Assembly: GCF_027580225.2 (NCBI RefSeq)
Contig: NC_073342.2
Span: 12,621,001 to 12,685,000, forward strand
DNA from: Misgurnus anguillicaudatus
Lineage: Eukaryota > Chordata > Actinopteri > Cypriniformes > Cobitidae
Direction: 5' to 3'
Length of the DNA stretch: 64,000 nucleotides
The translations under genes were made by a program, and so were the position numbers. The notes under the pieces were generated by a model that was not told the origin of the DNA, searched no databases, and saw only the letters and a program-made list of their open reading frames with translations. The number at the start of each line of letters is the position of its first letter. Positions within the stretch are counted from its first letter, which is position 1. Positions 1,581-33,121 of this stretch are shown piece by piece.

Positions 1581-1837
1581 AAAAAAACTCAGCATAGGCC
1601 TATGTGCCTCATACAATAACATTAAATATATTTGCTGCATGGTTCTAGACAGGCCCGGCTGCAGGATGAAATGACTGAGGGGGCATGTGAAATTGTTGAG
1701 GGGGCTTAACTTTATACCATCAATGATACACTGAGATCTTGCTTTGAAAAGACATATTTTTAAATGCAGCAGTCAATAAAACACTCCATATGCAACTGCA
1801 CCTCACAGGTAACCAGAAACTCACTAATGATGATAGA

Positions 1838-2722
1838 CAGTGCTTTAAGTGGCCCAAAAGAGGTGCTGGTACTCTATTTTTTATTTTTATTTTTTGCTGA
1901 CTCGACTCCTATATTGAAGGGGTTTTATATTCAGCAGTCAACAGACGACCTTGTAAAAAATAATAAATCCTTTTATAAGTTTGTGGATTTGTTTAAGCTA
2001 GAAATAGCTTCTGAACATAAATAAAATGTGCAAAAGTATTTTGAAAAAATACCATTAGAAAGAGCTATAGAACATAAATAAAATGTACAAAATGTAGATA
2101 TGGGAGTCAAATTTTCAGCATTTAAATGCTAAAACTAGTTGTTCAGATAGAAAGAAAAACTTTAAAATGACACCAAGACCATGTCTATGGGTTCAAGAAT
2201 AACAAAATACTGGCCATTTGAAACTCGAAAGTCATCACTTTATTTTCTCACATTGTTTTCCATTTTGCGGGTGGTAAAACTACTGTGCGCGTCATTCAGA
2301 TATATTGAAATTTCGTTCACTTGTAGTTTAGCAATTAAACTAAATGTCTATTACAATTTCAAGAATGTTTTTACTCTGCACATCTCCTGAGGAAATCCGA
2401 AGTTGCGTTGAGGGGAACCAAGCTGACAGCCGCGACAGCGGAGATGTCACATACCTACAAAAGGGTATTGGAGAAAGCTTGCATCTGACCTGCAGCTATC
2501 ATTCTGGCTTGTTGGAATGTCACTCAGCGAGTCCTCTGATTCTGAACTTGTTTTTTACTACTCAGAGTCTAAAACCAGGAGGGCATATTAAGTGTTCATT
2601 GTATTTTCATTTTAACCGAGCAGCTATGGTTGCGCGTTTCACACACAAACACACACCTCTCCAGACTGACAGCAGCGAAAGCGACGCATGCACTTTTAAC
2701 TTGTAAACGCGGGGGTGTATGG
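1838..2722. mobile_element. Left part of a hAT element split by inversion
   Basis: The end CAGTGCTTTAAGTGG starts at 1838, preceded by ATGATAGA. Its partner end is at 9240 in the same, not opposite, orientation and is preceded by TCTATCAT, the exact reverse complement. It hosts the insertion of the larger hAT that begins at 2723. No coding region is recognised in this part; short frames at 1764-2706 have no known domain. Confidence 0.75.
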
Positions 2723-3093: not shown

Positions 3094-3543
3094 TTATAAC
3101 AGGAGACGACGGGGCTTAGAGTTGAACACGGCAATAATCTCATTATAGTCCAACGATTCAGTCAACTTTCTTTCAAATGAAAGCAGGGACAAAGAGTTGA
3201 GTCTATGTGTTAACATTGTTGCTCTGATGCCAGTTTTGATTCGATTTACAGTCGAAAACAATCGTTCGACAGTACAGCTTGTTATGGGTGTTGTGATGAG
3301 AGTGCGCAGCAGACGGTTCATTTTAGGAAATATATCACTTGGACATGCATCGAGCACTTCCAAGAGTGATGGAAATACCCTGTCATTTAAAACTTTTCTT
3401 TGCAGCTGCTGAAAAAACACCTCACGTTCAGAATCCTCAACTGTGATTTTAAAGTGTGCAGCAGCAGGCTGTAATAAAGCCTTTTCACCGAAGGTGTTTG
3501 AATGAGGCAAGCAAGCAGCGGCAGCTCTCATTAGTCCGTACAT
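3094..3543 (-). pseudogene. hAT transposase, C-terminal dimerisation domain
   Basis: This 149-codon frame ends the transposase of the hAT whose 3' terminus is at 2723. It shows the hAT C-terminal signature: TVERLFSTVNRIKTG followed by RLNSLSLLSFER, the region through which hAT transposases oligomerise. Upstream coding continues beyond the Tc1-like insertion, but the frame is lost near the insertion site (TA at 3554-3555 and 7893-7894). The full protein would have combined an N-terminal TTF-type zinc finger, an RNase H-like DDE core and this domain. The gene is dead: split by a transposon, frameshifted and separated from its N-terminus by inversion. Confidence 0.75.
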
Positions 3544-3999
3544 GTTTGTCTAGTACAGTTGTGTTCAAAATTATTCAACCCCAACTGAAATTGATTGTTT
3601 TGGCCGGTTTGACATTGATTTTGATTAGTGATGCACCGATGTGAAAATTTTGGCCGATGCCGATAACCGATATGACCCTTGTCTGTTATGGCCGATACCG
3701 ATATTTGCCGATGCCGATATCTCTGTATAAAAACACATTTTAATGATAATCAAATAAAGAGCTATTTTCCAAAAAAAAAATGTACTTTTGTAATTTATTC
3801 CCAGAAATGACTGATTGGGCACCTTTACCCATGTGCATAATGTCATCAATTAGCTGATTGATATGTAAGCTTATTCTTTGTAAGCTTCGGGATGCTTATT
3901 TTTTAAGTGGGTGATCAAAATTGGTTGTGTTGAACAATTTGTCCCGAACTCCCCCTCGTATCACCCGGCCCTCACTCTCATTGCATACAGCAGCAGGGG

Positions 4000-6010
4000 T
4001 GTCCAGACTTTTTTGTGTGGTGATCTACTTTTAAAATGATAAAGCCGACAAGATCTACATGCTAAAAAACACTTTAAATGCGTGGACTATACTGCATATA
4101 TCTCTACATTAGATTTAGGGCTGTCACCATTACTCAATTTTTTTGAGAAGTTGAAAAAAATCCTGGAGTTCATGTACTGTATAAAATAGCAGAGACACGG
4201 TTTAGTAAAACAAACTAGAAAGAAAATGACAATAGTATCAGAAGCATATAAATCAGCACAATGCTGCAGCTCTCTCTCTCTCTCTCTTCCTCCCTCGTTC
4301 GCTCGGGCGCGCGTACACACACCGGGCGCGTGCATCAGCTGCATGAAGGAAAGAATGCGATTGCATCCTGGTAAATTTCGGAAGTTTACACTGCAGCGGG
4401 CAGGCATAAGATTTATAAAAACACATTTCAGAAGAAAAGCACAGCAACTCAAAAAGACTTTGTGTTTCACAATTACTCTAAGACAGTGGTGTCCAGACTT
4501 TTAGCCGACAAGTTCTACATGCTAAAAACTCTTTAAATGCGTGTACTATACTGCATATATCTCTACATTCGATTTAGGGCTGTCAACCATCAGAGCATGT
4601 GAGTGAAGCCGAGCGCTGTGACGCTCCGCTAAATATTCCGTTCTACTGTTAAAGCGCTCCACTCAGTCGCTCACCGCCCAAGCAAGCGCTCCGTTAACTT
4701 TCCGCTCACGCTCGCAAATAAACCAATTCCCGCTCAGATCGCGCTCCGATATAATTTTTTTAAGTAAGCCAAATTGTTTTCTTGGATAATTGCATTTAAT
4801 TAAAGTATTAGCTGATAAATCGCAGTTATGTACAGTTGTGTGTTGGCTATTATAGTTTAACTGATACGGAGCTCCGGATATAATTACAAATTGTTTCCAC
4901 GACATTCACATGTTTTACTAATTTTAAGTAATAATAAATGTAATAAGTAATTACGAAATATTATAATAATTCGTTCCTCTTATGAGAAAGATTAACAAAC
5001 TATTCTGTTATATAAATATATTATTTGAAAAAACTAAAATAAATTGAAGAACAATTTCTTAACAAGAAGGTTTTTAAAGTGCAAATTTACAGTGCATCAG
5101 TAAATACAGAACACAGCTGTGTCTTAAAGAAATTAAAATTAGACAGTATTTATGAACCTGTAAATGTACAAAACGAATGCAATACAGAAGGCCATGAGTA
5201 TTTATTTATGGCATTTTCAATAGTATATTGGTAGATAAATTAACGTGTATTTATATAGTATGAAAACGAATAAATCATTATTTTGGCTAAATTCATCTGG
5301 ATATATCATTTTAGTCAGACTGATTTGTCATCATTTCAGAAGCTTAAATGCTATCTAAAACAACTTACATTTTATCCCGAGTGTTACTTGGTCAAAAATA
5401 TTTTTAAATATAGCCGCGAGAGCAAATTATAGCACAAAAATGTTTAGCTCACACGGACCGAATGAAAAGCCGTTAATTAAGCGAACTCTCTGTAAAATAG
5501 AGGACGTGCTGAATCAGTCGAGTCGGCAGATTCTCATCAATGTTTATAATGTTCCACGCATGCTGTTGATGAAAAAAATAATATCTAAATGTCCAGGGAA
5601 GAGTCCAGTGTTCAGTCAGTTAATATTAAATGCGTTTTTGGCTGAAGCTTTCTCATCCACGGAGCGGAGAACTATAAAGATTCTTATTTTAAATGGTTTT
5701 AATGCTGGTAAGCAATCAGTTAGCCTATATTATGGCGCTTTGTATTTGTGTTGATCAGTTAGATTAAAGTAGCTATTCTCGAACTAGCAAATTACCAAAG
5801 GGCATTCTGGGATGAGCGAGCGGTGCTGAGGGTATTGAGCGAGCAGAGCGGAAATTACGGAAATGCGCTCTGATGGAAATATTACCGCACCGCTCACATG
5901 CTCTGGCGGGCAGGCATAAGATTTATAAAAACACATTTGAGAAGAAAGGCACAGCAACTCAAGACTTAAGTTACGTGTGTCACAATTACTCTTGGAGGCA
6001 TTGAGCAGCA
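4000..6010. repeat. Tandem duplication of about 490 bp, second copy interrupted
   Basis: The block GTGTCCAGACTTTT...GATCTACATGCTAAAAA...GGGCTGTCA at about 4000-4130 recurs at 4487-4590, and the block GCGGGCAGGCATAAGATTTA at 4397-4460 recurs at 5906-5970. In the second copy the sequence between the two blocks is replaced by the hAT at 4591-5905. A (TC)n tract and a GC-rich stretch lie at 4270-4335. Short frames here are not conserved. Confidence 0.7.
4591..5905. mobile_element. hAT-like element within the duplicated block
   Basis: Ends are CAGAGCATGTGAG and CTCACATGCTCTG, an inverted pair, with further ends rich in GCTCCG-type words. The flanks do not match (left TCAACCAT, right GCGGGCAG). 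The right flank equals an uninterrupted site in the other copy of the duplication (about 4397), so the left flank was probably deleted or replaced after insertion. A 104-codon plus-strand frame at 5440-5754 has no recognisable domain. Confidence 0.7.
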
Positions 6011-6513
6011 TAAGGATACACAGTTAATTTATGTGCAATCTACCGGCATTGCCTTTGCGATCGCGATCGACGTATTGGACACCCCTGTCACACAGCATAG
6101 CGAGGATCTTCTTCAGACACTTTGAAGAACGACCAGGCAAACGACAATACCTGCTTCAGCACATGTGTAACTTATGCCCTTGTGCAAAAACAAACGTACT
6201 CGCCCCCACACTCACGTCTCCTACACACACACGTCAAATACACAGGAATGATTATCGGCCTGTTCACATCGGCCCTATTTTGACATCGGGCCGATGTGTA
6301 AAAAAATGACCATATCGGCCGATATTATATCGGCGGCCGATATATCGTGCACCACTAATTTTGATCATTCAGTCATCCTGCTTACAATTACATCAAAGAG
6401 GCATGTGTAGGTCAGACAAATATAACATAACATTTATAATGAAATAACCACAAATGTCTTTTCTGTGCTCACATCATTATCAGATTTATTCAACCCCCAA
6501 GTGACATTCAATC

Positions 6514-7539
<1,026 letters not shown>

Positions 7540-7998
7540 TTAGAAGGAGTTGAGTTTCACAGTCATTTTAAAGCTGCCTAATTGGTGCTTATTAGGCTTT
7601 ATTGCTGTTCCCTGACATCCATAGGTGTTTTCAATACCTGATTGAAAACACTTCAATGAACCTCTGTTCTTCAGAGTGGTAGTTCTTGAATAGTTGAATA
7701 ATTGTGTCAATTAAGAATTCACAAAAGAAACATTTACTACTATATTACAAAACCAATTGATGTCATTTTAGTTGCATATGGTTCTTTAAGAAGTCATTGT
7801 AGGATTTAATTCTGAATACAATTACAAATGTACACTAAATTCCCTAAAACCCTTAACAGCATTGGGGGGTTGAATAATTTTGAACACAACTGTATATCAT
7901 TCCACAATTGTTTCAGGTCTGAGTTGTCCTTGACAGGACGCTTTGCCCACGGTAGACTTGACCAGCGTATCACTCAACTTAGCTGGCAGCTTCCTCTT

Positions 7999-8578
7999 TC
8001 AGGCCCCAGTGACGTCCCAATTCATAATCTCGTGCCTTTTCATCAAATCATCCGTCAGTGCCATAACTTTATCAATGTCATTTTCTTCATTTCTGAATGT
8101 AGTGTAGCTCTTTTTAAGCCCTTTGATTAGATCAATGCAGTCTGTTACTGATACAGTGGCAGACTGCAAGCCCTTCGTGGCATAATCACTGGTTTCAAAC
8201 AACTTGTTGAATGTTACAAGCAGAAAGATACATTTTTTCGTTTGCATTTGATGCAGTAGTGAGTCAGCCTCAAATTTTGTCTGACCTGAGCTTTCTGAAA
8301 ATTCAGCAAGAGTCTCCAATATAGGACCAAAAAGTGTAAGCACTTTACTTACTGCACTTGACCACGAGCTCCATCGGACATCACATGACCTGTCGAGTTC
8401 TAAAGTCGTTTTCCCTGTCCGCAGCTGTTGCTGGATTTCCATAAATCTAGCATGTCTATGTGACCCCGTCATAAAACTGTGCAAGTTGTTAATGACATCG
8501 AAAAATGTTGATATGCTGGGGGACACCTTTGATGCTGTGCACAGGATGAGGTTAATAGTTCGCAGTTGATGTCCCTTT
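7999..8578 (-). pseudogene. hAT transposase, central region
   Basis: Reading on the minus strand from about 8578, the frame starts GHQLRTINLILC, corresponding to the H-x-L-N-L-x-L motif of the hAT core, and continues through a CDVRWSS motif (the conserved R-W) and a helical region. It ends in a stop at 7999. It lies upstream, in transcription order, of the C-terminal fragment at 3094-3543. Sequence upstream of 8578 reads TTTTCCAAAG, which could be a splice acceptor or simply the inversion break. Residues before the H-x-L motif are not found on this strand but occur on the plus strand at 15420-18000. Confidence 0.7.
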
Positions 8579-8599
8579 GGAAAACATAATTAAAAATCT

Positions 8600-8930
8600 A
8601 ACAACCATCAATGTAATGATGTCTAATTATGTGAATGTTTTATTCTTTAAATATAAAAATATTTGCCTAATTAAACACGGAGTGTTTTTTTTACAAATAT
8701 TTAGTTATATAGACTGCAATGTAAGCTTTTATGAAAGTGATGGCCCCTAGTGGAGTCATGTGGGATAAGGTATAGCTAAGAGCGCTCCAGACCAACCTTA
8801 CGAACGTATGACTTACAGAAGTGATACGTAACTAAGAGCGTTTCGGAAAACACGTATTAGCGATAAGGTACAGCTTAAGGTACAACTTAAGAACGACATA
8901 GCGTTAAGGTAGTTTCGGAGAACGCAGCCC
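8600..8930. other. Left inversion-breakpoint interval, no gene
   Basis: AT-rich sequence (8600-8720) is followed by a stretch with repeated TAAGGTAC and CTTACG words (8750-8930) that resembles a transposon end but has no partner that I can find here. The left breakpoint of the inferred inversion must lie in it. Confidence 0.4.
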
Positions 8931-9207
8931 TGATCTATACTAATATACCTGGTATATACCAGCTAATAAATGTAGTCTTAATTTGGGTGGGCACACTGCA
9001 TTTGAAATTCAATCTGCATCTAATATAGCTAAACCAAGTAAATTTGCTCGAATTAAAGTCATTTTATGATTAAGTCAAGTTTAATCATAAAAAATGTATT
9101 TTACCAGCAACAAAATTGTGGACAGTAAAAATGCTGAGTGGCTAGTAGCTTTGGAAAACAACTAGCCACTTTGGCTGGTGAGCAAAAAAGTTAATGTCAA
9201 GCCCCGC
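8931..9207 (+). mobile_element. Foldback hAT-like MITE, 3' half (inverted block)
   Basis: It is nearly identical to 14313-14585, the right end of the complete copy at 13681-14585, including GGTATATACCAGCTAAT and the terminal GTTAATGTCAAGCCC. The remaining part of this copy lies at 18370-18548 and 28641-29093 on the opposite strand. The flank next to this end, read on the minus strand, is TAGTAAGC, against TAGTAAGT next to the other end at 29096. Confidence 0.75.
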
Positions 9208-9239
9208 TTACTATCAAATAATATCTCATGCTCTATCAT

Positions 9240-9489
9240 CAGTGCTTTAAGTGGGCCGGAACGCGCCGGTACTCAGTACCGCCACTTCCAAAAATAGCTC
9301 TTGAGGGTACCACCACCTTTCCGTGCGCCCAGAACGTGCTTTTAGCGTACAGGAACGCTCATTTGCACTGTTTAAAAATCAGAGGTTTAATTTAATCTTT
9401 TGGCTGCGCTGACGCTTTTCAGAGCGCCCTTCACAACGTACGCATACTAATTCGTCCCACCGAGAGCAGAGACTACATTACCCATACAC
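9240..9489. mobile_element. Other end of the hAT begun at 1838, inverted
   Basis: It starts CAGTGCTTTAAGTGGGCC, matching the end at 1838, with GTACTC also shared. The preceding 8 bp TCTATCAT are the reverse complement of the ATGATAGA at 1830-1837. In an undisturbed element the two ends would face each other; here they point the same way because this end lies in an inverted block. Confidence 0.75.
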
Positions 9490-9808
9490 CAGCCGCGTAG
9501 CTGTGGGTGGGCCTGGGTGGGCCTTGGCCTGCCCACTGGTCAGCAAGGCCCACCCACCTACGAGCTAGGTATCCTAATTAAGTAAATTATGTTGCAATTA
9601 TCATACTTGATATATAAATAAATTGTATTTGTTTTTTAACACTTGTTTGCCATATTTTAATATAGAATAACTTAATTTTGTAAAAAATATTAGTGCCATA
9701 TATAGCGCATTTTGAAAAGCTTATTGCCCATCCCCCACACGCACGCACCGCAAGCACATTTAACAGAGGGACACGACATTTAGCTAACATTCGGTATGTA
9801 AAACTTAA

Positions 9809-10007
9809 ATGAAACAGAGTACTTTACTAAAGTTTGTATCCAAAATACGTCGGCCACAGGATGAAGAGAATGCAGATGTTCCAGAGACATCAATTTCGAG
9901 TAAGGATTTGATTAGCTCTTCTTTTGCCACTGCATCCATTTCTCCATTATCGGCAGCGTGCCATTCTCCAACATCTACCTCCCCTACACGTACACGCCAG
10001 TGTTCAG
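9809..10007 (+). pseudogene. hAT transposase exon 1
   Basis: The frame starts MKQSTLLKFVSKIRRPQDEE, a short basic leader common in TTF/ZMYM-type hAT transposases, followed by a Ser/Thr-rich stretch. It ends at TGTTCAG|GTA, a splice donor, in phase 1. A Tc1-like element is inserted at the TA of this GTA, so the donor is directly disrupted. The next exon is at 15420. The start is the first Met after the 5' terminal repeat; no other Met competes. Confidence 0.6.
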
Positions 10008-11331
10008 GTACAGTCTTGTTCAAAATAATAGCAGTACAATGTGACTAACCAGAATAATCAAGGTTTTTAGTATATTTTTTATTGCTACGTGGCAAACAAG
10101 TTACCAGTAGGTTCAGTAGATTCTCAGAAAACAAACAAGACCCAGCATTCATGATATGCACGCTCTTAAGGCTGTGCAATTGGGCAATTAGTTGAAAGGG
10201 GTGTGTTCAAAAAAATAGCAGTGTCTACCTTTGACTGTACAAACTCAAAACTATTTTGTACAAACATTTTTTTTTCTGGGATTTAGCAATCCTGTGAATC
10301 ACTAAACTAATATTTAGTTGTATGACCACAGTTTTTTTAGAACTGCTTGACATCTGTGTGGCATGGAGTCAACAAACTTGTGTGGCACCTCTCAGCTGTT
10401 ATTCCACTCCATGATTCTTTAACAACATTCCACAATTTATTCACATTTCTTGGTTTTGCTTCAGAAACAGCATTTTTGATATCACCCCACAAGTTCTCAA
10501 TTGAATTAAGGTCTGGAGATTGGGCTGGCCACTCCATAACATTAATTTTGTTGGTTTGGAACCAAGACTTTGCCCGTTTACTAGTGTGTTTTGGGTCATT
10601 GTCTTGTTAAAACAACCATTTCAAGGGCATGTCCTCTTCAGCATAAGGCAACATGACCTCTTCAAGTACTTTAACATATGCAAACTGATCCATGATCCCT
10701 GGTATGCGATAAATAGGCCCAACACCATAGTAGGAGAAACATGCCCATATCATGATGCTTGCACCTCCATGCTTCACTGTCTTCACTGTGTACTGTGGCT
10801 TGAATTCAGAGTTTGGGGGTCGTCTCACAAACTGCCTGTGGCCCTTGGACCCAAAAAGAACAATTTTACACTCATCAGTCCACAAAATCTTCCTCCATTT
10901 CTCTTTAGGCCAGTTGATGTGCTCTTTGGCAAATTGTAACCTCTTCTGCACATGCCTTTTTTTAACAGAGGGACTTTGCGGGGGATTCTTGAAAATAGAT
11001 TAGCTTCTCACAGACGTCTTCTAACTGTCACAGTAGGGCTGTGCAAATAATCGTTTTTCGATTTCAATTTCGATTTTTGCACATTTCGATTGCAAAAACA
11101 AGATAATCGAGGGAGATCGATTAGTGTGCCGCATTTCTGTTATTTCGTTTTGAGTCATTAATCCGACGCGCCATAAGCAGCTGCGCCTCGCACACAAAGT
11201 AGAAATCCTCATGTATTTGTTCAGTTTTATGCTTTTCAAGCGAGCGGAAACTATCCCTCACATTTAAAATATCAGCTGGATCGTGGCGCCGCTCTCCGTG
11301 CATAGAGCTGCGCGCTCAGTCATCTGTTTAA

Positions 11332-12763
11332 AACTTGTTAACACGCACCGGCCCGGCGGCGGGCCCTAGGGGGCGTTTTTACGTGTTTTTGTACTTTGTT
11401 TAACATCAAATATTCAATCAACAATCATAAACTTTGCATTATTTGAAAGTTTAAACACTCCAAATTCATGTTCTGAGCTTATTTTTGCAATCAATACACT
11501 GGTGTGGAAAAAATTTAATGAAATGCAGACGGAATGCATATAAAAAATTTTGTGGGTACTCACATGGCTTGCCATATGGTTCTGACAATTTCTGACAATT
11601 CCCAAAAACTTCAACGTACATTGCAAGGTAAGGGTCCACTCTTCAAAAAGCATCCCACGTTTTAATCCATAACAATGAAAAATAGTGAGAAATCCAGCAA
11701 TATCCTCCTTTGTTTACATCCGCGCGTCCGCTAAGTATGATCGATCATGTTTATTTTCTATCAAATATCGATTTTTATCAGTGAAAATCCATCTCTTCCT
11801 GCTTCGTTAGACTGTTCAGATAAATATCCCGCCCTATTTTTCTGTTTTGTCCAATCAGAAAAGGTTTGACAACTCAAAATCTCATGCGATCAATGATTTG
11901 CCTAGATAGATGTCTTTCAGCTTGCCATAGGCTTTTGACTGGATTACACCAAAACAAAGCCAGCCAATGCATAGTGAGCAAAGCTTTGATTGACAGAGGA
12001 AGTAACCAATCATGAAACGATTACAAGGATTCAACTTACGTCAGTAAAGTGTACTTCTGCGCAAATCTACAGAAGCGCATGGAGAGAAATGCCCACGCCC
12101 CCTCCGTGCGCGTTTGTTTGGGTAGCATAGCAGCCGGCTAAGCTCTCCGGAGCCGCTGAGAAACCTCTTCAAAGGTTAGATATAACATCTCCATTGTGGA
12201 TCGTGGACTACAGATGACTTTTTTGTGTTGAAAGTGTTTTGGAGAAGTTGATAAAGAGCATGATCGCGGATCAACAATGCAAGACTGGATGTAAACAAAG
12301 CGCGTCGTCGAGGAGAGATGGACCGGATTATGAGCTCAGCTGCGCTCGCTTGGATAAAGTAAGTGGATTCTTTTGTTGATTTACGTTACATTTCTTGTTT
12401 CATGTTAGCTGTTTTGATTATAAAGTAACACTGGAGATGACTAATATACGAGTTTTACATGGTTTCGTTTTTGTATGACATGTTATATAAATGCATCATA
12501 TTTATAGCTATATGAATCAAATGCACAGAATATACAAACTAAAAACTAGAAAATAAGATATGTGGTGGAAAATATGAGTATTACCAGCTGAGAAATATAG
12601 GTTATTTGGCAAACATAAGACATTTGTAATTATAAATAAATATATTCATGTAATGTGTGTGTGTTTGTGTATATGTATTATGTTCATGTATATTACATCA
12701 TAGTTTCTCATACAAATAGTTGTATGTCTCTAACTTTTGACTCAAACTAAAATCCTCTCTTGC

Positions 12764-12858
<95 letters not shown>

Positions 12859-13515
12859 TGTGATGTAAAACAGGACTTCAGCTGACACAGGAGGACTGGA
12901 ATCTGGAGTGCATTCATGAGCGACCACATTCAAAATAGCAAGTATTTTGTTATAATGTGCAAATGTTTTTTTCTGAAATAGTTTTTTCTTTGTGCTTTGG
13001 TGGGCAGAGAAGTTCTGAATTGATATACATAATGTAATATGTAGTCCTGACTCATTTTCTTTTTATAATCATGTCATATTGTTATCATGTGTATATTTGG
13101 AGTTTCCAAGTGCACTTTTTCTGAAAGGACGCCTGGACTTTTTTGAAATAAAAGCTCACAGAAACAACATTTTTTGGAGTATCATTCTCAAATTTGAATC
13201 ACAGCATGGTCAGACATTCAGTTCACCTATATGGTGTCCCCAGGTGTCTCACATGACCATTTCATACCTTTTTTGCTAAGTGAATGTTATTTAAAGAAAA
13301 ACGGAAGTCATTTAATGTATATTTTACCTTGTTTTACTCTGTTTCTTTACTACTCTGAGTTGTTATGACTATTAGGCAACAATATGTCAAGTGTCTAGTT
13401 TCAAACAAGACCAGAATTATGAATATAGACCATAGGGTTTAAGAGCTGCAGATGTTTTAGTTTGGAGTTGTCGTTTTTCAGAAAATGCTCAAAAATATAA
13501 GTGCTAGCTAACAGG
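11332..13515. mobile_element. TTAA-targeted element (piggyBac/Kolobok-like, non-autonomous)
   Basis: It lies between TTAA at 11328-11331 and TTAA at 13516-13519. The related hAT at about 43055 shows the uninterrupted site (CTAAGTCAGATCAC against TTAAAGTCAGGTCAC here). Ends are only partly inverted (ACTTGTTAACACGC and GCTAGCTAACAGG). A long (GT)n tract is inside. No transposase frame is seen; superfamily is inferred from the target. Confidence 0.6.
12765..12857. repeat. (GT)n microsatellite
   Basis: About 45 uninterrupted GT units. Minus-strand frames of Thr-His across it are artefacts of the repeat. Confidence 0.98.
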
Positions 13516-13680
13516 TTAAAGTCAGGTCACTAGGTAATAATCCTGTTTTTTGTTTGTAAAGTAATATGCATTTCAAGCGATCGTGTTTTAAATGTGAATC
13601 GCGTTCTGCTGGCACTTAAACACTACTGCTTTGACACGTGTAGCCTTCTGCAGCAACACTAAACAATGCGTTGAATGTAT

Positions 13681-14585
13681 GCAGGGCTTGACATTAACAC
13701 CAGCCAAATGCGGGTATATTTCGGCTGCGACCGTTTGTGGAGACGCGCGCGCGTTCAGCGGAGCGTTGCGGACCAAAGCGCCACCTCCCAGAGAGCGCAC
13801 GAGAGGTGATGGATTTGCGAATGCACAAGAGGACGCAGTCTGAGCGCATACACACTTCGGGAAAGATATAACAATTGCATGGAAGTGATTGGAGAGATAT
13901 ATATTGCGTGCACATTCTCAGGGCAAGAGCAGAGAGAAATTCAGCGCATTCCTGAATGAACACGAAATCAAATGAAACCCGCCAGCTGAGAGGTTCGCGC
14001 ATCATTTTAATGTAAGCTACTTTGGGCAACAATAATGCCCTCTCGACAGTTGTCATTAAAAGTCTTAAATCACTTTTAACAGAAAACATGATCAAGCATA
14101 TAAAATACAATCTTTATAAACAAGTTGAAAGTAAAATTCATGTACATTTCTTGACTGCTGTTGTTAATAAATATTTAAAGTGGTTGTCGAGGGGTTTTGT
14201 GTATATCTTTTCAGTTAATCTTCTACACCCCTGCTCCACTTTTAATATATTCATTCAATGTAAATCTATTTATGCCTTACTAGACTGTTTTTATGCACCT
14301 AAATATATGATATGATCTATACTGATATACCTGGTATATACCAGCTAATGTTGTCCTAATTTGGGTGGTCAGACTGCATTTGAAATTCAATCTGCATCTA
14401 ATTTAGCTAAACCAAGTAAATTTGCTCAAATTAAAGTCATTTTAGGATGCCAAAGTCAAGTTTAATCGTATAAAATTTATTTTACCAGCAACAAAATTGT
14501 GGCCTGTGAAAATGCTGAGTGGCTAGTAACTTTGGAAAACAACTAGCTACTTTGGCTGGTGAGCAAAAAAGTTAATGTCAAGCCC
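13681..14585. mobile_element. Complete foldback hAT-like MITE (905 bp)
   Basis: The ends are GCAGGGCTTGACATTAAC and GTTAATGTCAAGCCC. Flanks share ATGTAT (left GAATGTAT, right ATGTATAA). It is the reference copy for the split copy whose pieces lie at 8931-9207, 18370-18548 and 28641-29093. There is no coding capacity of note. Confidence 0.8.
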
Positions 14586-16375
14586 ATGTATAAATGCATG
14601 TTTTTACAGTCATTTAAGTAATCGTGTTAAATAATCGAGATTAAGATTTTTATCAAAACAATCGGGATTATGATTTTTCCCATAATCGCGCAGCCCTATG
14701 TCACAGTACTTACAGGTAACTCCAGACTGTCTTTGATCATCCTGGAGGTGATCATTGGCTGAGCCTTTGCCATTCTGGTTATTCTTCTATCCATTTTGAT
14801 GGTTGTCTTCCGTTTCCTTCCACGTCTCTCTGGTTTTGCTCTCCATTTTAAGGCATTGGAGATCATTTTAGCTGAACAGCCTATCCTTTTTTGCACCTCT
14901 TTATAGGTTTTCCCCTCTCCAATCAACTTTTTAAGTAAAGTACGCTGTTCTTCTGAACAATGTCTTGAACGACCCATTTTCCTCAGCTTTCAAATGCATG
15001 TTCAACAAGTGTTGGCTTCATCCTTAAATAGGGGCCACCTGATTCACACCTGTTCACAAAATTGATGACCTCAGTGATTGAATGCCACACTGCTATTTTT
15101 TTTAACACACCCCTTTCAACTAATTCAACTAATTGCCCAATTGCACAGCCTTAAGAGAGTGCATATCATGAATGCTGTGTCTCATTTGTTTTCTGAGAAT
15201 CTACTGAACCTACTGGTAACTTGTTTGCCACGTAGCAATAAAAAATATACTAAAAACCTTGATTATTCTGGTTAGTCACATTGTACTGCTATTATTTTGA
15301 ATAAGACTGTACATACAAATGTCAGGCTAATTATTTGATTAATACATAAAATATTATTCATAAAAATTTACTATAGCAGCGTTATGATTTCGGACGTTTA
15401 TTGTTTCAGACTCGACTAAGCCTAAGGCGAGTACTGAGGACCTAACTGCCCCATCTGACTTATCCAGCATTGATGACCATGCTACCCAAACTCTGTTCAT
15501 TTCCAGTCACCACTATAGCAAGCAAAGTTCACGTGGCTAGAGTACAGTATTTCGAAAGACGCTGTGTTTTGTAAACCATGTCGCAATTTCCCTAAAGCAG
15601 TCAGCGAGAGCCGATTTATAAAATCTGGCTTTAGAGACTGGATGCATCTTTCCCAGTGTTGTGTTAAACACGAGGCTAGCAGGGCACATACAACAGTGTT
15701 GGCCAGATCTGAAGGATACAGACAAAGTCATAAACCAGGACGGGGAAATATAATTAACCAGCTGCACAAAGATGATATCAACAGTTCGTTTGTCCAAAGG
15801 AATAGAGAACACATTAAAGTTGTAATAGACCTTGTTTTATTCTGCGCAAAACAAGACATTCCCTTGCGTGGGCATCGTGAAAACCAAGAGGCACTAAATA
15901 AAGGCAACTTCTTAGAATTACTTCAACTGATCTCCAGCTATGACCCAGAAATAAAAAGGCGACTGGACGAATTGCCTCGAAATGCAAAACTCACTAGCCC
16001 CGACATCCAAAATGAAATACTGGAAATCGCAGCATCATTAATTATATCCAAAATAAAAGGGGATTTACACAACGATGCAGATACATACTACGCAATTTTG
16101 GCAGACGAATGTAAAGACTTATCAAAAAAAGAGCTTGTGGCAGTTTGTATCCGATACATACACAAAGGCGTGTTGAAGGAAAGAGCTGTGGGGTTTGTGG
16201 AAACACAGGACATGAAGGCAGGTGCTATATCAGGAAAGATTTTGGAAGTATTGGAGCCTTTGCAACTGGATCCATCTTTGTGTGTTGGATTTGGGTTCGA
16301 CGGAGCATCGGTTATGTCGGGCAGTAAAGGAGGGGTACATGTGATTTAAAAAAAAACATTTCCTCGCGCAGTATA

Positions 16376-17973
16376 CAGTCTTGTTCAAAATAATAGCAGT
16401 ACAATGTGACTAACCAGAATAATCAAGGTTTTTAGTATATTTTTTATTGCTACGTGGCAAACAAGTTACCAGTAGGTTCAGTAGATTCTCAGAAAACAAA
16501 CAAGACCCAGCATTCCTGATATGCACGCTCTTAAGGCTGTGCAATTGGGCAATTATTTGAAAGGGGTGTGTTCAAAAAAATAGCAGTGTCTACCTTTGAC
16601 TGTACAAACTCAAAACTATTTTGTACAAACATTTTTTTTTCTGGGATTTAGCAATCCTGTGAATCACTAAACTAGTATTTAGTTGTATGACCAAAGTTTT
16701 TTAAAACTGCTTGACATCTGTGTGGCATGGAGTCAACCAACTTGTGGCACCTCTCAGCTGTTATTCCACTCCATGATTCTTTAACAACATTCCACAATTC
16801 ATTCACATTTCTTGGTTTTACAGCATTTTTGATATCACCCCACAAGTTCTCAATTGGATTAAGGTCTGGAGATTGGGCTGGCCACTCCATAACATTAATT
16901 TTGTTGGTTTGGAACCAAGACTTTGCCCGTTTACTAGTGTGTTTTGTCTTTGAAACGACCATTTCAAGGGCATGTCCTCTTCAGCATAGGGCAACATGAC
17001 CTCTTCAAGTATTTTAACATATGCAAACTGATCCATGATCCCTGGTATGCGATAAATAGGCCCAACACCATATTAGGAGAAACATGCCCATATCATGATG
17101 CTTGCACCTCCATGCTTCACTGTCTTCACTGTGTACTGTGGCTTGAATTCATAGTTTGGGGGTCGTCTCACAAACTGCCTGTGGCCCTTGGACCCAAAAA
17201 GAAAAATTTTAATCTCATCAGTCCACAAAATGTTCTTCCATTTCTCTTTAGGCCAGTTGATGTGTTCTTTGGCAAATTGTAACCTCTTCTGCACATGCCT
17301 TTTTTTAACAGAGGGACTTTGCGGGGATTCTTGAAAATAGATTAGCTTCACACAGACGTCTTCTAACTCTCACAGTAATTAAAGGTAACTCCAGACTGTC
17401 TTTGATCATCCTGGAGTTGATCATTGGCTGAGCCTTTGCCATTCTGGTTATTCTTACATCCATTTTGATGGTTGTCTTCCGTTTTCTTCCACGTCTCTCT
17501 GGTTTTGCTCTCCATTTTAAGGCATTGTAGATCATTTTAGATTATCAGCATATGTTTTTTTTCAAGTATTTATAGGTTTTCCCCTCTCATATCAAATTTT
17601 TAATCAATGTTCTCTGTTATTATTAACAATTTCTTGAACGACCCATTTTCCTCAGCTTTCAAATGCATGTTCAACAAGTGTTGGCTTCATCCTTAAATAG
17701 GGGCCACCTGATTCACACCTGTTTCTTTACAAAATTGATGACCTCAGTGATTGAATGCCACACTGCTATTTTTTTGAACACACCCTTTTCAACTAATTGC
17801 CCAATTGCACAGCCTTAAGAGCGTGCATATCATGAATGCTGGGTCTTGTTTGTTTTCTGAGAATCTACTGAACCTACTGGTAACTTGTTTGCCACGTAGC
17901 AATAAAAAATATACTAAAAACCTTGATTATTCTGGTTAGTCACATTGTACTGCTATTATTTTGAACAAGACTG
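16376..17973 (-). mobile_element. Tc1-like element, copy 2 (1.6 kb)
   Basis: Same terminal repeats and orientation as the copy at 10011-15309, flanked by TA at 16374-16375 and 17974-17975. It interrupts exon 2 of the hAT transposase. It carries no nested insertion. Confidence 0.92.
16672..17535 (-). pseudogene. Tc1-like transposase, frameshifted
   Basis: Pieces on the minus strand in order: 17535-17305 (ALKWRAKPERRGRKRKTTIK, the basic linker after the helix-turn-helix), 17351-17073 ([20 protein letters not shown] with the first catalytic Asp, then [13 protein letters not shown]) and 16962-16672 (TSKRAKSWF, then [19 protein letters not shown] with the catalytic Glu, ending GHTTKY). The N-terminal helix-turn-helix is degraded around 17540-17640. 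Several frameshifts and the loss of sequence near 16955, where the second Asp motif should be, make it inactive. Confidence 0.85.
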
Positions 17974-17999
17974 TATGTACATTGTAATTCCCACCGTCT

Positions 18000-18369
18000 T
18001 AAATGCTACAGGATTAAGAAACTATTTAAAAAATATATTTTGGGTGATGGAGTTGGTGAAACTGGCAGCTGTACAGCGAATCCTACGATTTCATTTGTGC
18101 ATTTCATATCCGTTAAATCTTAGTCTACCGGCAAGTATTTTAGCTGCATAAATAAATCGGGTAAAATAAAAAATATAACACTAATTAGGATTGTTAATGT
18201 TAATTCGACTTTGCATCGAAGTTTTTTAATGTTTTATAACTTTGAGGCAACTGCATGCCATATTCTTTAAAAACATTCAAAACAAACTGCGCACTTGCTT
18301 ATAGTCCCTAAGGTCAACACAATTTCCACATTAAAACTAATTAAAGCTAAAATCTATTTATTATTAGCA
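18000..18369. other. Right inversion-breakpoint interval, no gene
   Basis: AT-rich sequence between the end of hAT transposase similarity (about 18000) and the start of MITE similarity (about 18370). The right breakpoint of the inferred inversion must lie here. No domain or repeat is recognised. Confidence 0.4.
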
Positions 18370-18548
18370 GTAAATACTGTCAAGAAATGTATATGATTTT
18401 TACTTTCAACTTGTTTATGCAGATTGTATTTTATATGCTTGATCATGGTTTCTGTTAAAAGTGATTTAAGACTTTTAATGACAAATGTTGAGAGTGAATT
18501 ATTGTTGTCCAAAGTAGCCTACATTAAAATGATGCTCGAACCTCTTAG
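18370..18548 (-). mobile_element. Foldback MITE, middle part (left of gypsy insertion)
   Basis: This is the reverse complement of about 13990-14160 in the complete copy, with shared words such as AAGTGATTTAAGACTTTTAA. It continues on the other side of the gypsy element at 28641. The uninterrupted reference CTCTCAGCTGG shows where the gypsy inserted. Confidence 0.8.
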
Positions 18549-19166
18549 TGTCACAGGTCGGAGCGGACCACAGACTGTGTGCGTCTCGCTCCTTCCCAAG
18601 TTCCACCTCGAGTAGGTCCCAAAGCACCCCAATGACCAAACAACAAGAGATAAGTACTTTAAACAATAAGCTTTATTTAAATTATTTAAAAACTGTTTGG
18701 GAATAGGGAAAGGGAATCTAAAAAAAGTCTCGCTTCTCGCCCTCAGGGGGAGTACTACGGGGCCGGGGACGTTGGAGAGGAGAAGCCTCTTCTGCGGTGA
18801 CCAGGGGACAACAGGGCAAGGGCCGGGCGGAGCTCCTTCGTCCACGGCCCACCTCCTGCGTATAAGGACTTTCCGTGGCGTGCCTCATTCCTCCTGAGGG
18901 CTGAATAAACAAAAGGTAAGTTCTTCGTTGGATCAACTCACACAATACCTTCCTTCGTCGTGCCTGTACCGGATGGAGTAGAGCTTCAACTCTAGCCTGT
19001 ACACAAGTAAGTAGGATTTTCCCCATTAGGATTCTTCGTACAAGGTAAGGGTCGTTAATACATAAATGAAAATGAACTGGAGATAAGGTAAGTATCTTCC
19101 TTTATTTACATGTTTTTCTAGGGCTGTGGATCATTGCGTGGTAAATTAGCTTTAACTAGTGAGAAA

Positions 19167-20342
19167 CAGTGTTGTTTTCGTAAACGATGACGATAACGAA
19201 ATGATTTCGTTGACGCACCTATTTTTTATGACCCTAACGCGACGATGACTAGCTAAAAATGTCTCTAATGTGACGAAAACATGACGAGACGCTTTCGAGT
19301 TTTCGTTGACGAGACGGAACGAAAATTATTATAAGTTTGACGTTCACAATGCATGTCATTTCTGCCTATTTTGCATGAAATCTGTCTGTTTTTAGCTAAA
19401 AAGTATCAGCAATGCTGCCCCTTCCGATCCTTGTTTTGGGTCAACACAGTCTCATTTATGCTCACGCCCACCACACGGCTGCCGCCATGCCGCGCACGCG
19501 CACGCGCACCAGATTTCAAACAACAACAACAACACACTTGCGGCTGTGGCGAGTTCGAAGGGCCGTAGCGGTGACGGTGACGCCAATAAACGGAACCGAC
19601 GAGATGATTTATGGACCTACTTTTAGTATAATCCATCAGACAGAAAAACGGAATGCATATTGGAAGACGACGGCAAATGTGGCCACAAACTAGGTGGGAA
19701 GAATACCACCAACCTCAAGCGGCACCTGAAGGCTCACGCTAATATTTTTTAAAGGTAACTAACAAGTCACGCTGTTAACATATCATATACATTTAATTTT
19801 ACTCGACATTCGGCTTCTGACACATTTCATGGTAAGCTTAAGGTTTTACATGTATTTACTTGTCAAACCTAAGCCCATTTCCAATACTTTTTGTGGTGTA
19901 TTTAAATAAGGCAAGGCACGCGTTTCTCAACTTTATAAGCGAGGTCTCAGCGTAACACACAAACTTAACATGAGGGTATATCAGGCTCATCTTTTTTTTT
20001 CATAACTTTTTGTTATGACATGTGCAGAAGGCACACCGACTAAAACAACGACAAGCCCTCAGGGACAACCTTAATGCACATGTTAATTGTATTAAATACA
20101 CCACACTTTTTAACCTAAATTCATTGGTTAAAAAATACTTTTTTTAGTAAAATTGACTTAAACTTAACTAAAACCTTTTTGCGTTTTCGTCAACTAAAAC
20201 TTGACTAAAACCTTTTTGTGTTTTCGTCGACTAAAACTTAACTAAAACTATAAATTTTATAAGTGACTAAAATGTGACTAAAACTAAAAGCATTTTCGTC
20301 CAAAAGACTAAGACTAAAACTAAAAGGGCTGCCAAAAACAAG
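19167..20342. mobile_element. hAT element inside the gypsy LTR
   Basis: It starts CAGTGTTGTTTTCGTAAACG and ends with GACTAAAACTAAAAGG-type words. Flanks are GTGAGAAA and GTGAGAAG; the other LTR shows the empty site GTGAGAAGG. Interior is rich in CGTTGACGA and ACTAAAAC words, with no transposase. It entered after the gypsy, since only one LTR carries it. Confidence 0.85.
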
Positions 20343-20349
20343 GTGAGAA

Positions 20350-20690
20350 GGTAAGCATCTTCCTTTCTTTACAGGTTTTCTAGGGCTGTAGGTCGTTGCT
20401 TAGTAAGTTAGCTTTAGCTCGTGAGAAGGTAAGTATCTTCCTTGCTTTACATGTTTTCTAGGGCTGTGGGTCATTGCTGGGTAAGTTAGCTTTAGCTCGT
20501 GGGAAGGTAAGTATCTTCCTTGCTTTACAGGTTTTCTAGGGCTGTGGGTCGTTGCTGGGTAAGTTAGCTTTAGCTCGTGAGAAGGTAAGTATCTTCCTTG
20601 ATTTACAGATTTTCTAGGGCTGTGGGTCGTTGCTGGGTAAATTAGCTTTAACTCGTGGGCGGGTAAGTATCTTCCTTTCTAGGCACGGGA
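20350..20690. repeat. 78-bp tandem repeats in LTR
   Basis: Units begin GGTAAGTATCTTCC at 20350, 20428, 20506, 20584 and 20662, exactly 78 bp apart; one more unit lies before the hAT at 19087. The partner LTR has units near 27112, 27190, 27268 and 27346. On the plus strand each unit has a consensus-like splice donor AAGGTAAGTAT followed 20 nt later by a pyrimidine tract ending CAG. Confidence 0.9.
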
Positions 20691-21956
20691 GTAAGATCAG
20701 AACTGAAATCCATACATCACCGCAGTCGTCCAATGTAGCAAGAGGCGAGGGGCTTCGATGGACTCACGGCCGGGGCCGACACGTTACGTCCCGCTGAATA
20801 AACTCCAAACGGCCAGCGACTGCACGTCCTCTTCCCTAGGCAGGCGAAGATCTAGACGAAAGAGAGGAGTTATCACACATTAGCTTTCATACGTAACGTA
20901 CGTAAGAACGCCCAGGTTCCCTTGGTCCCTCCTCAACTACCCCTCTGCTGCTTGGGCGGCTGATGTAGCTACCAAACTCCTCACCGTACCTCACTCAGTG
21001 TTTCCACTTAACTCCTGCTGGACACCGCTACAAAGCATAAATGAGTTGGTTGGGCACACACCGTCGTGGGGGCCCCCAATGGCATCCACAAGGGTTCAAT
21101 CCCTCCTGAGGTGAGTACAAACAACAAGGACACAGCACAACACTTCAAAAGCTTTGTGTACTCACGTCAAATAAATCACTCACTCGTTGCACAGCACACA
21201 CTCCAGTGGATAGGTTAATGTCCGTACTCCTCTCCTGGTGGGACTGTGCCTGAATAGCAGGGTAGAATTGTACTGGCCACGTAATACAGTGCCTCAACCG
21301 GATGGCAAAACTCTCGCTGTCCCGTATTACTCAATACACGTCCCTCGGCTCGCCCACCTACTACACACATCTAGTGGGGCCGTTTAGAAATGGATTACAC
21401 TCTCCTTTAAAATGTAAGCATTCAATATTAGTTGCTCAATTGCTGTTACTCATGGTTTGGCGGGTTTCTAATCAATCTCTCTCCCTCTCCTTATTTCTCC
21501 TTCCTCAGGACGTTCCCGATATAAACCATGCCCTTGATGCAGAGTTCCCAATCCTTTGTGTAGACAACAACAACAAAAGGTGCCGATGGGTACGTTCCAA
21601 ATACAAGATACTCTTACTTGACTTTGAAAGGTGTTTCTTCTCTCTTCACAGATCCCAGGCGTATCACAGCAACGTATTCCAGCACCAGAACGACTCACAG
21701 CCCAGCCGGTATCCACAGCATACATCCAACGCGATCAAACTTCACCAAGCAACTCCTACTTTCTCCGTTTATATCCCTCTCTTTAGCGTGGCTCGTCCAA
21801 TCCTCATTCGCCACGTCGCTCACACAGCTGTGCCATATTATGGTGATTGCGGGGGATCCCCGGGAAACCCGGAAGTGCCGGTGTCTGTGCAAACCGGCCC
21901 GGGCGTAACCTCTTCACTCTACTTTTGGTTCCGCCCTGTCTAGTCACTCTGTGACA

Positions 21957-21969
21957 TCCTCCCCCACCA
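21957..21969 (-). promoter_or_regulatory. Gypsy 1 polypurine tract
   Basis: On the minus strand TGGTGGGGGAGGA stands immediately before the 3' LTR, the normal place for the plus-strand primer of reverse transcription. Confidence 0.75.
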
Positions 21970-21998
21970 ATCGGTTCTAGTCCCTAGAACGTCCTTGG

Positions 21999-23059
21999 TC
22001 AGCCCATTCGCCGGAGGTCGTCCTGTTGTGACACAATCACATAGGAGGTGCTTTCCCAGCGATTACTAAGTTTACTTTTTCCCTGACGGCGGTTGTCCCG
22101 CACCAGGACCCTCTCTCCAGGAAGTAAAGGGGCCTCCCGGGCCGTGCGGTCATAAAGCCTTTTGTTCTTCTCAGCTGCTTTTTGCAGGTGCCTCGTGACC
22201 TGTTCATAGGCGAACCGTAGATGTCGGTGATGCCGATCTTCTCCCAGCGCTGGTGCTCCCATCCGTAGATCCACGGGTAATCGCACATGCCTGCCGAACA
22301 TCAGAAATGTGGGGGCATACCCCGTGGTGCTGTTTACACTATTATTGTAAGCCTGAAGCAAGGCGGGTAAGGCACTCACCCAGTCCCCTTGGTGGTCATG
22401 ATCCAAAGTTCCCAGGAGCCCCAGGAGGGTCTGATTAAATCTTTTGCACCCCCCGTTCCCCTGGGGGTGATAGGAGGTTGTATGGGTCTTGGTACATCCA
22501 TAGAGCTGACACAATTCCTTCACCACTCGGGACTCGAAGTTTGCCCCCTGGTCGGAATGCAAAAACTCTAATCAAACAAACGGCTGGAAAATGGTCCTCC
22601 AGAGGGCCGTGGCCATCGTGTGGGCGGTCTGGTCCAGCGTCGGAATGGCCCAGGCATATTTTGTGAACAGGTCTGTTACTACTAAGATGTTCTGATAGCG
22701 ATCTGCGGGTCTTCCTAAGGTCAGAAAGTCCATTGCCACAATATGCAACGGGGCCCGTGCCTTCACCGGGAACAGCAGGGCCTTCGGTTCCCATCTTGTC
22801 TTAAAGAGGGTGCAACGGGGACAAGCCTGAATGAAGGTACGGCGGCCTCCAGTCCTGGCCAGTAGAAGTAACGACGTACCAGTGAGGCCGTTTTCTCCTT
22901 TCCCTGGTGTCCCAGCTGGTCGTGATATGCTTTAAGCAAGGCCTGCACCTCTCCGGTGGGCACCACCACCTGATGGACCTCTTCTCCCGTCCCTTGTTCG
23001 GAGACCACTCTGCACACGACCCCGTCTTGTAGCTTCAGCCGGTCCCATTGCCCCAGCAA
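21999..23059 (-). pseudogene. Gypsy 1 integrase
   Basis: Integrase joins retrotransposon cDNA to the genome. Pieces in order: 23059-22763 with an HHCC-like zinc region (YHDQLGHQGKEKT, YFYWPGL); 22766-22572 with the first catalytic Asp (HIVAMDFLTLG); 22562-21999 with the second (MHSDQGANFE) and a C-terminal region (RVLVRDNRRQGKSKLSNRWE). The expected catalytic Glu falls at PQGNGGCKRFNQ (about 22450), where it is Gly. Frame breaks separate the pieces near 22770 and 22565. It cannot encode active integrase. Confidence 0.88.
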
Positions 23060-23304
23060 CTTACGGACTCCTCCATCCTGGGTCCTCCTTTCCTCTGGCG
23101 TCTGCCCTTGGCCCCGTTCCGCACGGTCCGCACTCGCTCATCCCTTTGCTGTCGTTCTCTCCACCGGGCGGGGTCCCACCCCCAACTGGCCAGCACTGCC
23201 TCTCGGTGACTTCCCGGGGCCTCGATCACGCCCACCAAGTACCCATCCTCCGCTACCTGGGCCTCTCTCGTCGACCCCTTGACAGGGCTTTGTCCCTCGG
23301 GCAG

Positions 23305-23860
23305 TCAGGACAGCACATCCGCATTTACGTGTTCCTTCCGTGGATGATACTGGAGCTGATAATCATAATTGGCTAGCTGTGCCACCGACCGTTGTTCCAC
23401 TGCTCCCAACTTAGCGGTTTGTAAATGGACCAGAGGGTTGTTGTCCATCACCACCTGAATCTTGGCGCCCCACAGATAATCTTTAAACTTTTCACTTAAG
23501 GCCCACTTTAGGGCCAACAGCTCCAGCTTAAACGAACTATAGTTGGCATCATTCCGCTCTGCGGGGTGGAGGCTCCGGCTGGCGTATGTGATCACCCTCT
23601 CGGCTCCATCCTGCCACTGGGCTAGCACAGCCCCCAGCCCCAGGTTACTGCCGTCTGTATATAGAATAAAGGGCAAGTTAAAATCCGCATAAGCCAGAAT
23701 AGGGGCTTGTAACAATTCCATCTTTAATTGTTGGTACGCAGCCTCACATTCAGGGTCCCAGGTTATCGAGGGTGACCCCCGGCCTCGGGGTTGTCCTGTC
23801 CCTGCCAACAGCTGATTCAGAGGTTTAGCAATTTTAGAAAACCCCTTGATGAATCGTCAG
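23305..23860 (-). pseudogene. Gypsy 1 RNase H
   Basis: The frame contains FILYTDGSNLGLGAVLAQ (first RNase H Asp), SRSLHPAERN, a Glu in LELLALKWAL, and VVMDNNPLVHL, the typical gypsy tether and RNase H order. It follows the RT after stops at about 24076 and 23860 (in the phase reading FVGYY, stop, RFIKGF). It ends at NADVLS, where the gypsy consensus enters the integrase spacer. RNase H degrades RNA in the RNA-DNA hybrid during cDNA synthesis. Confidence 0.88.
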
Positions 23861-24846
23861 TAGTAGCCCACAAACCCTAAGAAAGATCTAACATGCTTCA
23901 CCGTCGCCGGGGCACTCCACTCTCGCACAGCTTCGACTTTCTCAGGGTCCACGGCCACTCCAGCGGCACTCACTACATGACCCAGGAAGTTTACTTTTCT
24001 CTGTAGTAAGTGGCACTTCTCTGGTTGCAGCTTGAGCCCATACCGTTCTACAACCTGGAAGACTTCCTCTAGATGTTAAAGATGGGTTTCAAAATCCGGT
24101 GAGTACACAATAACATCATCAAGGTATACCAAAGTCGACTCCATCAACCGCCCTCCCAGGCATCTCTGCATCAATCGTTGGAAAGTGGCGGGAGCGATAC
24201 AAAGCTCGAAGGGCATCCTGTCCCACTCGAAAAGGCCGACAGGGGTGGTAAATGCGGTCTTCCCACGATCTTCTTCCTCCACTCGCACCTGCCAATATCC
24301 ACTCGCCAAGTCCAGGGTTGAGTACCAAGCGGATTGGGTCAAGCTGGCTAGAGAATCCTCAATCCGTGGCAGGGGGAAGGCGTCCTTCTTCGTTACCTGG
24401 TTCAATTTTCTATAATCAATGCAGAACCGCCAGGCCCCGTTCTTTTTCTGTACAAGAATGATCGGTGCCGCCCAAGGACTGCTACTCTCCCTCACTATCC
24501 CGCGGTCCAGCAGGCCCTGCAACAACGTTCGTATCTCTGAGTACAAAGTGGGTGGGATGGGTCGATACCTTTCACGGCTGGGCCCGGCTTCCCCAGTAGG
24601 GATCTGGTGTCGTACGACATCAGTGCACCCATAGTCCTCGTCATGGGTGGTGAATACATGTTGCCAGCGAATCAGCAATTCTTCCCCACTCAACGCGGCA
24701 TTCCTCAGGTGCCTAGGTATTCCCTCTCCTATTTCTCTCGGGGACATGTCTACCTGGGTTAGGGCAACTTCGACTACAGTGGGTTTAACCTGCCGAAAGC
24801 TCACTTCTCGCCCTTCCCGGACCTGGTGGGGGCCAACCCCGGTCAC
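23861..24846 (-). pseudogene. Gypsy 1 reverse transcriptase
   Basis: Domain order is clear: RGIVRESSSPWAAPIILVQK, WRFCIDYRKLN, STLDLASGYWQV, TAFTTPVGLFEWDRMPF and the active-site STLVYLDDVIVYS with both Asp present near 24120. A stop follows at 24076; the remainder (EKCHLLQRKVNFLGHVVS) continues in frame to about 23861. The catalytic box is intact, so loss of function rests on the stops. Confidence 0.9.
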
Positions 24847-24891
24847 TCGGGCCAGTCGTTGGTGTCAATGTAACTGTACTGGATATAAACT

Positions 24892-25710: not shown

Positions 25711-25741
25711 TCCCACTCGAAGCGTGGCCGCATCGGCTGAC

Positions 25742-26539: not shown

Positions 26540-26572
26540 TGGGGAACTTAGGTCGCTCCACTCGAGGTGGAA

Positions 26573-26590
26573 ATCCTGCCGACTATGCCA
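26573..26590 (-). promoter_or_regulatory. Gypsy 1 primer-binding site, tRNA-Ser type
   Basis: On the plus strand ATCCTGCCGACTATGCCA equals the 3' end of vertebrate serine tRNA plus CCA with one difference (A for G-C position, TATG against TACG). It sits 6 nt from the 5' LTR. It would prime minus-strand cDNA. Confidence 0.7.
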
Positions 26591-26596
26591 AAAATC

Positions 26597-28638: not shown

Positions 28639-28640
28639 TC

Positions 28641-30261: not shown

Positions 30262-30269
30262 GTTCTAGA

Positions 30270-31715: not shown

Positions 31716-31731
31716 TGGTAGCAGAGGATGG
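31716..31731 (+). promoter_or_regulatory. Copia primer-binding site, initiator tRNA-Met
   Basis: TGGTAGCAGAGGATGG is an exact 16-nt complement of the 3' end of vertebrate initiator tRNA-Met, one nucleotide after the LTR. It overlaps the start codon at 31728. Confidence 0.9.
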
Positions 31732-33098: not shown

Positions 33099-33121
33099 AG
33101 GGCACAACGAAAAGTGAGTGG

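Follow-up and report, generated by a model that had tools for sequence, protein, structure and literature searches.

Inversion 2z3 of Drosophila buzzatii is attributed to recombination between homologous, oppositely oriented copies of Galileo at the breakpoints (PMC2775673). Among human rearrangements mediated by transposable elements (TEs), nearly 96% of the non-homologous events have junction homology of less than 5 bp (PMC9675761), and extra complexity at both breakpoints was found in four of seven Alu inversions and none of eight LINE-1 inversions. In Misgurnus anguillicaudatus, a 64,000-base stretch without a single N (contig NC_073342.2, positions 12,621,001 to 12,685,000; hereafter the window) contains a nest of transposons in which a 9,443-bp segment lies in inverted order, probably as the result of a two-break inversion with TTAA microhomology. 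As at 2z3, the inversion is revealed by target-site duplications (TSDs) in reverse-complement register, and the breakpoints have nested elements; unlike 2z3, no homologous copies were found at this locus, and the elements themselves are cut. The human non-homologous rearrangements (PMC9675761) share with this locus a few-kilobase inversion in transposon-rich DNA and short junction homology, whereas there an Alu or LINE-1 partner is found at each breakpoint and here DNA transposons have been cut, with an exon divided without loss. No zebrafish study of an inversion in hAT transposable elements read from reverse-complement TSDs was found in the literature sampled, a statement that concerns the sample and not everything in print.

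The inverted order is recorded first of all by hAT elements nested within each other: an inner element with a transposase (hAT1), its host (hAT2) and an outermost element (hAT3). Two further hAT-like elements serve as controls. Their positions in the window are as follows.

2715-2722, plus strand: TSD GTGTATGG of hAT1, adjoining its 3' end at 2723
9482-9489, minus strand: other TSD CCATACAC of hAT1, adjoining its 5' end at 9490
1830-1837, plus strand: TSD ATGATAGA of hAT2, whose left end is at 1838
9232-9239, minus strand: other TSD TCTATCAT of hAT2, whose right end at 9240 is now within the inverted segment
1650-30261: hAT3, enclosing the entire inversion, with exact direct TSD GTTCTAGA at 1642-1649 and 30262-30269
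3626-6357: control element left of the inversion, within Tc1, with exact direct TSD ATTTTGAT; classed by its 8-bp TSD
11034-14698: control element wholly within the inverted segment, flanked on both sides by TGTCACAG as an exact direct TSD; classed by its 8-bp TSD

The flanks of hAT1, GTGTATGG and CCATACAC, are exact reverse complements, as are those of hAT2, ATGATAGA and TCTATCAT, and each of these four 8-mers has a single occurrence in the window. The ends of hAT2, CAGTGCTTTAAGTGG(C/G)CC, both read in one direction. A preliminary description of the locus had made the same claims for both elements, and the match is exact in each case. Reverse-complement 8-mers were encountered in 55 of 2,000,000 random pairs from the window, a rate that places two independent exact matches far beyond chance. 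Turning the segment back in silico makes the TSDs of hAT1 and hAT2 direct, with inward-facing ends (positions 17064 and 17314 in the reverted sequence), and GTGTATGG then stands on both sides of hAT1 as the 8-bp duplication of the hAT superfamily. As to terminal inverted repeats, local alignment of the hAT1 ends gave only a 12-bp match, set back 24-36 bases from one end and 12-24 from the other; by eye, the outermost bases are partly similar. In contrast to the two cut hATs, the three uncut hAT-like elements have direct TSDs, as an inversion predicts, the controls being limited to elements with both ends recognisable by eye and not a census. The preliminary description had further placed the inversion wholly inside an outer hAT with direct TSD, which is true of hAT3 but not of hAT2, the right end of which lies inside the inverted segment.

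The transposase of hAT1 is divided between the two strands, and it adjoins, at each breakpoint, an insert of other sequence (X, described below).

9809-18002, plus strand: N-terminal part of the hAT1 transposase, in pieces 9809-10021, 15522-16376 and approximately 17976-18002, with two Tc1-like interruptions
3094-8555, minus strand: central and C-terminal part of the hAT1 transposase, with a Tc1-like interruption at 3554-7894
10009-15311, 16374-17975 and 3554-7894: Tc1-like elements inside hAT1
8552-8555: left breakpoint, TTAA at which the hAT1 exon (minus strand) adjoins X
17999-18002: right breakpoint, TTAA at which the hAT1 exon (plus strand) adjoins X
8556-17998: inverted segment of 9,443 bp, with TTAA at either edge

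A search with the joined protein returned 458 relatives at an expectation value (E) of 0.001 or less, and counts of relatives refer to the best 120 of these. Within that set the best relative is P0001 of Sinocyclocheilus rhinocerous, which aligns with 99% of the query at 80% identity. Comparison of P0001 with the window by tblastn confirms the earlier assignment of the N-terminus to the plus strand (matches at 9809-10021 and 15528-16376) and of the centre and C-terminus to the minus strand (8556-7936, 7937-7893 and 3546-3097); residues 1-354 match the former and 362-720 the latter, without overlap of a single residue. Once the segment is reversed, the five matches follow one another in protein order on the minus strand, and the one that spans the junction grows from residues 362-549 to residues 353-549. 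The plus half ends in codons for VHCNSHRL and the minus half starts with NLILCTAS; the exon joins these in frame with a single TTAA retained and no base gained or lost. The 16 residues around the join are contiguous in all 108 evaluable relatives (12 of the 120 could not be evaluated). Because the query had been the joined protein, the halves were also aligned separately to the 30 best relatives, and in 28 of these no residue separates the two; of the remaining two relatives, P0029 has the same spacing at the join with two residues unaligned, and P0023 is without the stretch around the join.

Identity to P0001 is 84% for the N-terminal part, 84% for the middle and 80% for the C-terminus, and identity to P0002 is 74%, 77% and 70%, respectively. 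These similar values and the abutting halves indicate that the halves belong to one subfamily. The preliminary description had raised the prospect of halves from different subfamilies, and each half proved 84% identical to the same protein; most simply, the halves would be parts of one copy. No second copy of either half turned up in the window, and an inverted duplication in place of an inversion was rejected on this ground and on the lack of residue overlap between the halves.

Among protein domains, DUF4371 (PF14291) was recognised in the N-terminal part (87.7 bits, cut-off 32.1) and Dimer_Tnp_hAT (PF05699) at the C-terminus (25.3 bits, cut-off 21.4, E 1.4e-5). The N-terminal zinc finger zf-C17orf113 scored 22.7 bits, under its cut-off of 29.5; for the central part Pfam gave no match. 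PF14291 is present in the best relatives and PF05699 also in several, and among the matches listed the named best relatives are mostly fish proteins of TTF/ZMYM1-like type. One chain only was found as a solved-structure relative of the junction region, at a meaningless E of 0.49. With its 8-bp TSD, its Dimer_Tnp_hAT domain and its similarity to P0001, hAT1 resembles the ZMYM1-like/DUF4371 hATs of fish; unlike those, this copy is damaged by the inversion, three Tc1-like insertions, in-frame stops and a frame change. The transposase gene was cut by the inversion, and the Tc1 interruptions may be earlier or later than the cut. Two of the Tc1-like elements (10009-15311 and 16374-17975) are about 96% alike over 1 kb, and the third (3554-7894) has an open transposase frame of 337 residues with Tc1/Sleeping Beauty domain matches.

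A third element divided between the strands resembles a miniature inverted-repeat transposable element (MITE). An undivided copy of the same family, located within the inverted segment, was used as a reference.

13681-14585: reference MITE, undivided
8931-9206, minus strand: left part of the split MITE, followed by its outer flank CTTACTAT at 9207-9214
18379-18548, plus strand: right part of the split MITE, which resumes at 28639-29089 beyond a long terminal repeat (LTR) retrotransposon
28639-29089, plus strand: right end of the split MITE, with flank CTAGTAAG at 29090-29097
8556-8930, minus strand: first part of X, ending in GGGCTGCGTTCTCC at 8930 against the MITE
18003-18378, plus strand: second part of X, its right end not defined

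Positions 8931-9204 have the orientation of the reference (14313-14585), whereas 18379-18548, 28639-28881 and 29044-29090 are opposite to it (13681-14155), and all pieces come to lie on one strand once the segment is reversed. The outer flank CTAGTAAG matches the reverse complement of CTTACTAT at seven of 8 bp. Both results agree with the earlier proposal that a MITE is split across the inversion. A 157-bp stretch of the reference (14156-14312) is missing from the split copy. Conversely, about 160 bp at 28882-29043 are present in the split copy and have no counterpart in the reference, so that the copies represent two length variants within a single family. The LTR retrotransposon within the split MITE (18549-28638) has long repeats that are 91-96% alike over parts and, by eye, pol-like open frames on the minus strand; its flanks, TTAG and TCAG, point to a 4-bp duplication in which one base differs.

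The spacing from exon to MITE is about 375 bp at each junction, so that X totals approximately 0.75 kb. The preferred but not settled reading is that its two parts are a single insert in the MITE, cut at its own TTAA; this reading requires fewer special assumptions. The second break would accordingly lie inside X, as suggested by the exon boundary and the TE-like end GGGCTGCGTTCTCC at 8930. No other copy of X is present in the 64,000-base window, and under neither placement of the breakpoints is there a terminal inverted repeat at the very ends of X. If X is treated as an insert in the exon, its best inverted match comprises 15 AT-rich columns located 16-41 bases inside the ends. The possibility that X is a coding element was discarded: two short open frames in it have no Pfam match, and a protein search gave two candidates, none at E of 1 or less. 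Nor does X convincingly represent the missing middle of the MITE; comparison of both parts in both orientations gave scores of 32-46 against maxima of 43-53 (100 shuffles each), and one of the four comparisons (8556-8930, 45 against 43) was just above the shuffles.

Reversing the segment in silico restores the strand and order of the transposase and brings the split MITE together on a single strand; the TSDs of the two cut hATs become direct. A single inversion therefore explains the nested elements, as the preliminary description had argued from four observations (the TSDs of the inner hAT, the TSDs of the host hAT, the split MITE and the split transposase), all of which survived rechecking. 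Its word "proven" can be applied to the assembled sequence and not yet to the animal, in which we infer a germline event. Of the best-supported breakpoints, 8552-8555 and 17999-18002, the left one lies about 25 bp outside the range that it gave (8.58-8.93 kb).

Each of the two cuts most likely lies, to the base, at a TTAA site, and the homology common to both breakpoints is exactly these 4 bp. The nest of transposons inside hAT3 (1650-30261) was probably hit by two double-strand breaks, the first in the central exon of the hAT1 transposase and the second in X, within the MITE-like element that lies on the right of hAT2; the intervening 9,443 bp would then have been rejoined in reverse. TTAA is identical to its own reverse complement, so that with both breaks at this motif the joined ends have 4 bp in common and the exon shows neither loss nor gain. 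At least four bases were common to two random breakpoints in 1.9% of 400,000 trials, which makes chance an unlikely source of the shared TTAA and favours microhomology. Joining may have proceeded by end joining or by a replicative template switch. Two-break repair with TTAA microhomology fits best, and several points weigh against it. No relative of X that links its two parts turned up among window copies or in the protein search, and X has no recognisable right terminus. The 157 bp of the reference MITE that are missing at X would have to be explained by a further deletion or by variation of the MITE, and the evidence comes from one assembled sequence only.

The same inversion might have had other breaks, at 8930/8931 and in the MITE at about 18378, if X were an insertion of about 750 bp in the exon with duplication of TTAA and if about 157 bp of the MITE had been lost. 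The two placements of the breakpoints agree on the inversion and differ by about 0.4 kb in the end of the segment. Breaks at 8930/8931 and about 18378 are near the ranges of the preliminary description, TTAA flanks the exon on either side of X, and the reference MITE stretch 14156-14312 is missing at just that place. Target duplication of TTAA is typical of elements with terminal inverted repeats, such as piggyBac and Kolobok, whereas X has none at its very ends. Specifically, X was rejected as a piggyBac insertion: its ends, TTAA-ATGCTACAGG and GCGAACTA-TTAA, differ from the GGG/CCC ends of piggyBac beside TTAA (PMC4625184). If X had been inserted in the exon, the resemblance of GGGCTGCGTTCTCC at 8930 to a TE end would also have to be coincidental; we consider this placement unlikely. 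The join that distinguishes the two placements within X is GAACTATTAAATGCTACAGG.

An artefact of assembly or library preparation, with the segment in the other orientation in the animal, would fit the fact that nested repeats are the usual place of assembly failure. This explanation is quite improbable in view of a window free of N, junctions that are both clean and reciprocal, and a common sequence of only 4 bp, with no flanking repeat able to mislead an assembler. Proximity ligation of filled-in T^TAA ends leaves a TTATAA scar, but the junctions read TTAA.

Cleavage at TTAA by an enzyme, for instance a transposase of piggyBac type, could have opened two sites with complementary TTAA overhangs that were then closed crosswise, producing an inversion exact to the base. 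TTAA is the target of piggyBac (PMC4625184). Given the 513 TTAA sites of the window, the chance that two random breakpoints both lie in one is about 0.16%, an arithmetic figure that allows five positions per site and concerns a motif noticed after the fact. Such cutting is very unlikely to have produced the inversion; if it did, seamless TTAA-to-TTAA inversions are expected in excess in fish genomes.

Ectopic recombination and aberrant transposition are both disfavoured by a common sequence of only 4 bp and by breakpoints that are not transposon ends. Recombination between inverted copies of one transposon has in its favour that Galileo inversions were likewise recognised by TSDs in reverse-complement register (PMC2775673). 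At this locus such TSDs mark elements that the inversion has cut, not elements at both breakpoints, and homologous copies at the breakpoints were not found: the best local scores between the 300-bp breakpoint flanks, 24 inverted and 23 direct, are within the range of shuffled flanks (n=200; mean 22.3, maximum 32), 50 of which reach 24, as do 44 of 191 random window pairs. Recombination of this kind is highly improbable. Hardly any more credible is an aberrant transposition in which ends from separate hAT or Tc1 copies took part, despite the many hAT and Tc1 elements in the nest: the breakpoints are not recognised element ends (the nearest Tc1 end, at 17975, is 24 bp from 17999), the exon side is coding at both, and the junctions have TTAA only, with no 8-bp or TA duplication. 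Independent insertion of half elements without any inversion, for which no support was found, has a negligible probability, as three elements would each need a matching half and a matching flank (by chance 55 in 2,000,000 per 8-bp pair) and the pieces of the exon meet exactly, to the base.

The inversion has no evident function, and the locus, which is dead transposon sequence, is a well-preserved case of a common type of rearrangement. Where nested transposons serve as markers of orientation, one genome without relatives is enough to detect a small old inversion and place it to the base. Other hAT-like elements with reverse-complement TSDs could yield a catalogue of inversions with their breakpoints, in which an excess of TTAA could be tested.

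The sequence around the nest has other repetitive features. Positions 1-930 are an irregular tandem array of a CTGCTCCCGCAGGAGCC-like unit. Identical 174-bp direct repeats at 1009-1182 and 1408-1581, 225 bp apart, could be a retrotransposon with very short terminal repeats or a recent duplication. On the other side, at 31728-35374, two adjacent long open frames, read by eye, have the look of a Copia-type gag-pol and are apparently little damaged.

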